From: Thermanaerosceptrum fracticalcis
Lineage (GTDB): Bacteria; Bacillota; Peptococcia; DRI-13
Direction of reading: 5' to 3'
Assembly (NCBI RefSeq): GCF_000746025.2
Contig: NZ_CP045798.1
Coordinates: 1,412,501 to 1,476,500 of the forward strand
Length of the DNA: 64,000 bases
The position numbers and the translations under genes were made by a program. Below, one piece after another: positions 42,812 through 59,395 of the stretch (position 1 is its first letter; every line of letters starts with the position of its first letter). The notes below the pieces were generated by a model. It had not been told where the DNA came from and made no database searches. It worked only from the letters and a program-made list of their open reading frames with translations.

Positions 42812-42888
42812 TCCTAATAAATTATTGTCCGTTATTATTGTTGCTTTACCTAAACAATTTTAGTGCTGGAAAATTTAGTGGATTGGGT

Positions 42889-43625
42889 TTACATGCTCGC
42901 TTTGCAAACATAGCCATGGACAAGTTCTTTTTTTAGTGTGGCGAAGAAGGACTCCATACAAGCGTTGTCATAACAATCACCTTTGGCGCTCATGCTTTGC
43001 CGTATACCTGGCAACAAGCTTATCCTGACAGGCATAGGCAGCATATTGGGATCCCCTGTCAGAATGAAAGATAGTCCTTGGGCAGGTTTTTTTCTTAATA
43101 ATCGCCTGTTCAATAGCATCAATGGTTAGCTGTTTTGTCATACGACTGTCCAGTGCCCAGCCGATAACCTTTTTGTGAAAGAGGTCTTCTACAGCTGCTA
43201 AATAAAGCCAGCCTTCGTCTGTCGGAATATATGTAATATCACCAACCCATTTCTGGTTAGGCCTTTCAGCTTTAAAGTCTTTCTCTAAAAGGTTAGGGGC
43301 TACGGGGTAGCCATGGTTTGAGTTGGTAGTAGCCTTGTATTTTCTTTTCAGGCGGCTGATTAACCCGTTTTCTTTCATCAGTCGTGCTAAACGCCGGTTA
43401 CTACATTTTATCCTTTTTCTTTTAAGCACTTTTTTATTCTTCAATGACCATATGTCTGTTCTGCTATACTAACGGGTTTCTTGCCAAGGTCTGTAGTAGG
43501 CTTAACGATTTCTTTCTTGTAGTCAGCGCTAAATTTGCTCTTTTCAGTCATTTGCCTAACACGCCCTTTCTTTAGGTTCTATTATAACAACCTTTCTGCG
43601 TGTCCAGCAAACCGAGTACAGTCCA
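42889..43625 (-). mobile_element. Degenerate IS3-family element
   Basis: Remains of an IS3/IS150-group transposase. The start of orfA (MTEKSKFSADYKKEIVKPTTDLGKK) lies at 43551-43441 and breaks off, most of orfA being deleted. orfB continues from 43444 with the integrase core: KWVGDITYIPTDEG (first Asp), [12 protein letters not shown] (second Asp) and, after a 1-base frameshift near 43008, [24 protein letters not shown] (Glu). The 3' end is missing beyond 42889. The upstream end looks preserved: TGGACTGTACTCGG at 43625-43612 reads like an IS3 terminal repeat and directly adjoins the 79-bp repeat. The element cannot encode a working transposase. Confidence 0.88.
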
Positions 43626-43704
43626 CTTATATTGTAACCAATACAAAAAAACACACCTCATCGGTGTGTTAATTTCAATGGTGGAGCTAAGGGGATTCGA
43701 ACCC
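43626..43704. repeat. 79-bp direct repeat, outer copy (tRNA-Ala 3' end plus terminator)
   Basis: Identical to 43827-43905. It contains the last 26 bases of tRNA-Ala (T arm onwards with CCA) and the following terminator hairpin. It is separated from the real tRNA by 122 bp of unrelated DNA with three strong hairpins (GGGGAG/CTCCCC, GGGAACC/GGTTCCC, AAGGGC/GCCCTT). It does not form a second tRNA. Confidence 0.85.
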
Positions 43705-43844
43705 GCCGACCCAAGGGCTCACGCCCTTTTCCCAGGGAACCGGATGGTTCCCTAGGACGCTCCGCTGTGACCCTCCTTATCCAATTAGGGGAGCTTCTCC
43801 CCCAAGCCCCCTCGAGGTCAGGGGTTCTTATATTGTAACCAATA

Positions 43845-43871
43845 CAAAAAAACACACCTCATCGGTGTGTT
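43845..43871 (-). terminator. Terminator of tRNA-Ala
   Basis: AACACACC/GGTGTGTT stem followed on the minus strand by T7, 9 bp after the CCA end of the tRNA. A second copy lies at 43644-43670. Confidence 0.88.
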
Positions 43872-43879
43872 AATTTCAA

Positions 43880-43955
43880 TGGTGGAGCTAAGGGGATTCG
43901 AACCCCTGACCTCTTGACTGCCAGTCAAGCGCGCTCCCAACTGCGCTATAGCCCC
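43880..43955 (-). tRNA. tRNA-Ala (anticodon GGC)
   Basis: A 76-nt cloverleaf including encoded CCA. Acceptor GGGGCTA/TAGCTCC, D arm GCGCAGTTGGGAGCGC, anticodon stem CTTGA/TCAAG with loop CTGGCAG giving anticodon GGC, and T arm AGGGGTTCGAATCCCCT. All stems pair. GGC reads the GCC and GCU alanine codons. Confidence 0.95.
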
Positions 43956-59277: not shown

Positions 59278-59395
59278 CTCTTATCTGTCAAGAAATTAAT
59301 CTTGCAGGAATTAGCACAGCGCCTCCGGTCTTGCCGTGAGGCCCGTTGCTGGGTTTCATCGGGCCAGTCCCTCCACCTCTCTGGATAAGAGATAT
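59278..59395 (-). promoter_or_regulatory. SAM-I riboswitch (S box)
   Basis: On the minus strand the P1 arm CTCTTATC leads into AGAGAGGTGGAGGGACTGG, then CCGATGAAACCC, AGCAACGGGCC and GTGCTAATTCCTGCA. The aptamer ends with AGATAAGAG, which closes P1. All these are the conserved S-box elements in the right order. High SAM should terminate transcription of metQNI. Confidence 0.97.

Follow-up and report, generated by a model that had tools for sequence, protein, structure and literature searches.

The small structured interspersed repeats BOX, RUP and SPRITE of the pneumococcus are thought to be non-autonomous mobile elements, and as described in the excerpted text of PMC3049150, BOX and RUP fold with paired terminal inverted repeats, whereas the family presented here has separate end hairpins; SPRITE is itself terminator-like, whereas our family sits behind existing terminators. 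Group IIC introns insert at intrinsic terminators (excerpted text of PMC4424553) and resemble the present element in landing behind them, but the element contains no group II domain and has a length of ~150–360 bp. tRNA-integrating islands share with our locus a duplicated tRNA 3′ end, but neither an integrase nor cargo was found nearby. Hairpins at both ends and no obvious terminal inverted repeats are features in which, we assume, the element resembles non-autonomous elements of the IS200/IS605 and REP type (Y1/HUH). The DNA inserted behind a tRNA-Ala gene of Thermanaerosceptrum fracticalcis is likely to be a copy of a small hairpin-rich mobile element that lands behind intrinsic terminators, and the copy at this locus is a rare variant, here called T-type.

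The family resembles the uncharacterised Rfam family Clostridiales-2 (RF02937) below its cut-off. The window copy scores 26.5 bits and four of eight loci from relatives score 29.1 to 37.2 bits, and GGGG, a hairpin, AGGAGGGT and AGGGAAC are blocks common to both; all element scores lie below the gathering score of 58.6 and do not confer membership. The RF02937 model matched 19 of 299 genomes of the phylum at E ≤ 0.001, none of the 299 above the cut-off, and these matches are likewise multi-copy, with 9–13 in four of the 299 genomes. Our literature search found no treatment of Clostridiales-2 as an Rfam motif, although the family may still be described, and the excerpted texts of PMC7580957, PMC8040213 and PMC2864571 (which names Clostridiales-1 only) do not treat it.

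The features behind tRNA-Ala in the window, that is, the whole 64,000-nt stretch analysed, are as follows.

43880–43955, minus strand: tRNA-Ala (GGC), the sole tRNA found in the window (ARAGORN, Rfam).
43827–43905, minus strand: 79-bp direct repeat, inner copy, comprising the 3′-terminal 26 nt of tRNA-Ala, the terminator and the spacer.
43845–43870, minus strand: tRNA-Ala terminator (inner copy) behind which the element lies, from sequence and terminator scan.
43679–43827, minus strand: whole T-type element, 149 nt, from GAACCCC to CCA, delimited by end-to-end alignment with the BRH_c20a copy.
43814–43827, minus strand: element 5′ arm, an exact inverted match of the T-arm side of tRNA-Ala (43900–43913).
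43785–43805, minus strand: hairpin B, from fold and covariation.
43758–43784, minus strand: conserved linker with AAGGAGGGTCACAGCGGAGCGTC, including a 2-bp mini-hairpin.
43730–43757, minus strand: hairpin C, from fold and covariation.
43713–43728, minus strand: third hairpin, AAGGGC..GCCCTT, placed by position only where ordinary copies have hairpin D.
43679–43704, minus strand: element tail, identical to the last 26 nt of tRNA-Ala.
43626–43704, minus strand: outer copy of the 79-bp direct repeat (element tail, second terminator and spacer).
43644–43669, minus strand: second, identical terminator, behind the element.
42879–43620, minus strand: degenerate IS3-type remnant, not part of the element, recognised by its domains, with putative ends read from the sequence.

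The two repeat copies are identical over 79 nt (100%, spacing 201), as the preliminary description had reported, and because the window holds a single tRNA, at 43880–43955, each copy comprises the last 26 nt of tRNA-Ala and 53 nt holding the terminator. On the minus strand, tRNA-Ala is followed by its terminator, the spacer and the 122-nt insert, and then by the last 26 nt of the tRNA, the terminator and the spacer again. A perfect 79-bp repeat rules out a chance origin. The inverted 14-base copy of a tRNA stretch noted earlier is likewise exact (43814–43827 against 43900–43913), and the insert is indeed rich in hairpins: its 122 nt fold at −62.2 kcal/mol (z −3.28), with 1 of 200 shuffles as good. 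After the outer spacer there are probably 5 nt of native sequence before the IS3-type remnant, whose rve domain scores above the Pfam cut-off and whose HTH_21 and rve_3 domains score below theirs. The presence of a degenerate IS3 was therefore correctly recognised, but its start, placed exactly at 43625/43626, probably falls 5 nt short of that border; the ends may be read as TGTACTCGGTTTG (from 43620, minus strand) and TGGATTGGGTTT (from 42879).

Several structural RNAs were considered for the insert and set aside. The possibility that it belongs to a second functional tRNA, which would have overturned the preliminary description, was not borne out, since ARAGORN finds one tRNA only, and no complete tRNA fold is formed that would indicate a tRNA-like RNA. 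A tRNA-like acceptor stem for the tail could pair as GGGGCTT/TAGCTCC in the window, but the BRH_c20a copy breaks several of the pairs. A tmRNA remnant gave a weak match only (17.2 bits against a gathering score of 47).

The minus strand from 43827 to 43679 is one 149-nt member of a dispersed family of hairpin-rich repeats. A search for the insert elsewhere, as had been suggested, revealed seven strong copies in the same genome (G000), further partial matches there, and relatives in several Clostridia bins; among 60 relatives searched, an 83% match over nearly the whole insert was found in BRH_c20a (G038), a Clostridiaceae bacterium. A covariance model built from seven copies (R1) gave 16 matches at E ≤ 1 in G000, seven of them strong (1312609, 1904803, 2838098, 87486, 1456224, which is the window copy, 890273 and 1809804), the others being partial, weak or opposite-strand echoes of hairpins. 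On the window copy R1 covers 43724–43818 with 95.7 bits. Five of 46 genomes of the class were matched by R1 at E ≤ 0.01, strongly in G000, G001 and G038 and marginally in G014 and G027. A pattern scan of the genome collection returned 12 stretches in six bins, namely BRH_c20a, PH28_bin88, Soudan_17, SKS3.bin89, STF2_130 and M1_7_4_bin.22, the last being G001, of the same genus as the window genome; the same scan of viral contigs returned no copies. A second model, R2, whose matches rest mostly on sequence because its given structure was off by columns, gave matches in 8 of 13 selected genomes; 22 of these matches lie in the complete genome G158. There, many near-identical copies occupy different, scattered sites, and several are shortened on the 3′ side. 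Multiple dispersed copies, as expected of a non-autonomous small mobile repeat, are thus present.

An ordinary copy consists, in order, of the terminator, hairpin A (e.g. TATAGGAAATTAT..ATAATTTCCTATA), GGGG, hairpin B, a linker with AGGAGGGTNACAGCGRAGCGTC, hairpin C, GAAA, and hairpin D with the end CTTTTGTTC; the STF2_130 copies have no hairpin A. In the ordinary copies read, the 3′ end is a hairpin and not a tRNA end. The copy ends are hairpins without visibly matching tips, and the terminal inverted repeats of a classical MITE were not found. In the 30 copies whose two ends could be fixed (of 31 starts, L063 lacked an end and was dropped), sizes fall into a short (145–190 bp) and a long (301–357 bp) class, bar one tandem case of 542 bp (L148), in which a truncated copy precedes a full one. 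The long forms of G158 (L159, L160 and L149–L152; 301–357 bp) carry additional stems at fixed places relative to the short form, as though the short forms had arisen from them by deletion, or vice versa. The element copies showed no conserved gene. Open frames run across some of them mechanically, by chance: one of 65 aa in the window, which has no counterpart in the BRH_c20a copy, and, in a long form, antisense frames of up to 98 aa.

The fold of the family covaries. In 16 aligned cores, 8 of 20 pairs are changed on both sides, and the covariation score of 0.226 compares with 0.106 for shuffled alignments, none of 500 shuffles scoring as high; all six slid registers of the core alignment gave lower scores. 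In its best fold the window copy is closed by GAACCC/GGGTTC, but this stem is absent from the centroid of the same copy and from the best fold of the BRH_c20a copy. A conserved closing stem is therefore unsupported, which counts against our proposal.

The copies are strongly enriched just behind intrinsic terminators, and strand-specifically so. Of 44 copies (45 anchors, of which L154 was not found; L072, anchored on the wrong strand, is counted as a miss), 29 have a terminator-like hairpin with a T-run on the strand of the element within the preceding 60 nt, compared with 270 of 4000 random windows from the fetched loci. T-runs within 25 nt are found upstream of 23 of 30 copies and downstream, on the same strand, of 7 of 30 (p = 7.6e-5). 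Two observations count against an element that lands behind terminators: (i) 15 of the 44 copies have no terminator by the scan, although some of these are visibly misses, and (ii) T-runs do occur downstream in those 7 of 30, as do A-runs, i.e. T-runs of the opposite strand, in 10 of 30. In both G000 and G001 a copy lies directly behind a tRNA-Leu terminator, without a tRNA tail (L003, L071). Two G158 copies (L140, L143) lie directly behind what by eye appears to be a T-box terminator in a gene leader, so that such elements can enter regulatory leaders.

The preference for terminators recalls that of group IIC introns, and the element might be a passenger that uses it by way of a group II intron reverse transcriptase; a group II intron of G158 (RF02001, 59.5 bits) does lie inside an element copy, just behind hairpin B. 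We regard this as very unlikely, since no group II family matched the element itself and in the nested case the element serves as the intron's target and not as a substrate. The element as a group I or group II intron in its own right was rejected as well: no intron family matched, and RF02001 is the nested intron. Such nesting behind hairpin B was observed in two G158 copies, near 280371 and 3550342 (L156 and L157); the intron encodes a 421-aa reverse transcriptase, as read in L156, and the upstream part of L157 is the same.

Mobility is supported by one presence/absence case and one different-site case, of the kinds looked for in a small mobile repeat. The copy at G000 1904803 is missing in G001, where 7 nt separate the two flanks and the downstream flank comes after the same terminator stem. 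No target duplication was identified; the T-run at this empty site has diverged. The copy at G000 1809804 and a copy on contig C121 of G001 share 96% identity over 148 bp, and no alignment was obtained between their flanks; the terminators ahead of them are different, and both copies start with TCCTAAGG and end with CTTTGTTC. Both the vacant position and the 96%-identical copy that the sister species has at an unrelated site speak for movement. On the other hand, the empty site could reflect precise loss, and three positions common to G000 and G001, namely 2838098 and 890273 (both flanks align) and 1312609 (one flank), are simply inherited, which counts against a mobile element.

These shared positions, together with the covarying fold and the designation of the related family as an sRNA in Rfam, would suit a host small RNA or 3′-UTR regulator that has been copied around, with selection for RNA function explaining spread and conservation. 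This explanation appears improbable to us in view of the many near-identical, scattered and in several cases shortened copies of G158, and of the empty site and the moved copy.

The window copy differs from ordinary members at both ends. The T-type form, represented by the window and BRH_c20a, lacks hairpins A and D and has in their place a 5′ arm complementary to a tRNA T-arm and a 3′ tail that is a tRNA-Ala 3′ end up to CCA. BRH_c20a is an independent bin and carries the same element including its tail, which makes an assembly error in the window less likely; over the whole element the two copies align with a score of 212, compared with 60.9 ± 7.1 for shuffled sequences. The preceding 75 nt, with the terminator, score 49 against 24.7 ± 6.0 (best shuffle 39) and may be related too, judging from this alignment, while the following 60 nt are unrelated (28.5 against 24.9 ± 4.8). 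On the BRH_c20a contig that carries the element, tRNA-Pro and tRNA-Cys are the only tRNAs and tRNA-Ala is absent, and the 3′ ends of that genome's own tRNA-Ala(GGC), tRNA-Ala(TGC) and Ala-like fragment differ from the element tail; inheritance as part of the element is therefore the simplest explanation of the tail. In the window, the adjacent tRNA-Ala gene matches the tail, the terminator and the spacer without a difference. No T-type copy beyond that of the window was found in 398 genomes of the phylum, a list that does not include G038, and the fact that the form is known from two copies only counts against our proposal. The tRNA-Ala locus gave no match in G001, a genome that is 80% complete.

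Integration at a tRNA gene classically leaves a perfect duplication of the tRNA 3′ end, and such a direct repeat is present here. The preliminary description read it as an integrase footprint and suggested a collapsed island; in that case an integrase would have acted at the tRNA-Ala end, and the cargo would later have been deleted, leaving a structured element near the attachment site. A second fragment that comprises a tRNA-Ala acceptor end and terminator (89% over ~60 bp) at G000:C1:148128–148187 (L002:1501–1560), adjoining a DDE transposase gene but without the element core, may be counted in favour. However, no site-specific integrase was found in 13 ORFs, a selection of those between 37.2 and 50.0 kb, by Pfam; there was no phage, plasmid or viral-contig match, with which a phage or plasmid origin was also discarded; the contig of the BRH_c20a copy carries no tRNA-Ala; and the family of the core is mostly without tRNA ends, its ordinary copies ending in a hairpin and sitting behind terminators. 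The island is thus an unlikely source of the insert, and the footprint is unsupported. The other suggestion of the preliminary description, a miniature element that uses the tRNA end, came close: a small dispersed element is found, and the tRNA-Ala 3′ end occurs in the BRH_c20a copy as well.

Based on these observations, we propose a mobile element, short or long in form and without a recognisable gene, that would insert behind terminators in fixed orientation. At the tRNA-Ala locus the left end of the element would have been joined ~18 nt beyond the terminator's T-run. Recombination with tRNA-Ala may have resolved the right end, which shares homology with the 3′-terminal 26 nt of the gene; this presumed step would have copied the tail, terminator and spacer again. 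Mobilisation would take place in trans, perhaps by a single-strand (Y1/HUH) transposase recognising hairpins. A Y1 transposase with the same ends was not found: neither hairpin A nor the core occurs in 30 fetched Y1 loci, and the 9-nt end motif of hairpin D occurs in 2 of them. Y1 transposases are present in all eight element genomes and also in 5 of 14 control genomes. A copy in G123 lies 2.1 kb from a Y1 match with an internal stop, and the BRH_c20a copy lies 6.3 kb from one of the 19 Y1 matches of that genome. This Y1-type transposase, 6.3 kb before the element (G038:C58:92040–92959), is encoded in two overlapping frames.

A bolder and rather doubtful extension is that a terminator-targeting element of Clostridia captured the 3′ end of tRNA-Ala both as its own terminus and as a homology hook for docking at tRNA genes, and that Clostridiales-2, instead of being a host small RNA, is part of the same mobile superfamily. 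If true, tRNA-derived SINEs would be an analogue of this element, in form only. What began as a curious tRNA duplication speaks for a family of small elements, spread over several genomes, that land behind transcription terminators, where they do the host little harm, and offers a concrete case of a tiny element carrying a tRNA 3′ end; a kinship with mobile DNA is also suggested for an ‘sRNA’ family of Rfam that has no known function.

In two truncated copies (L042, G000:1207851; L181, G158:738072), the AAGGAG of the linker stands at the ribosome-binding-site position for the next open frame. Elsewhere in the window, a SAM riboswitch is located at 59278–59391 on the minus strand (86.5 bits).
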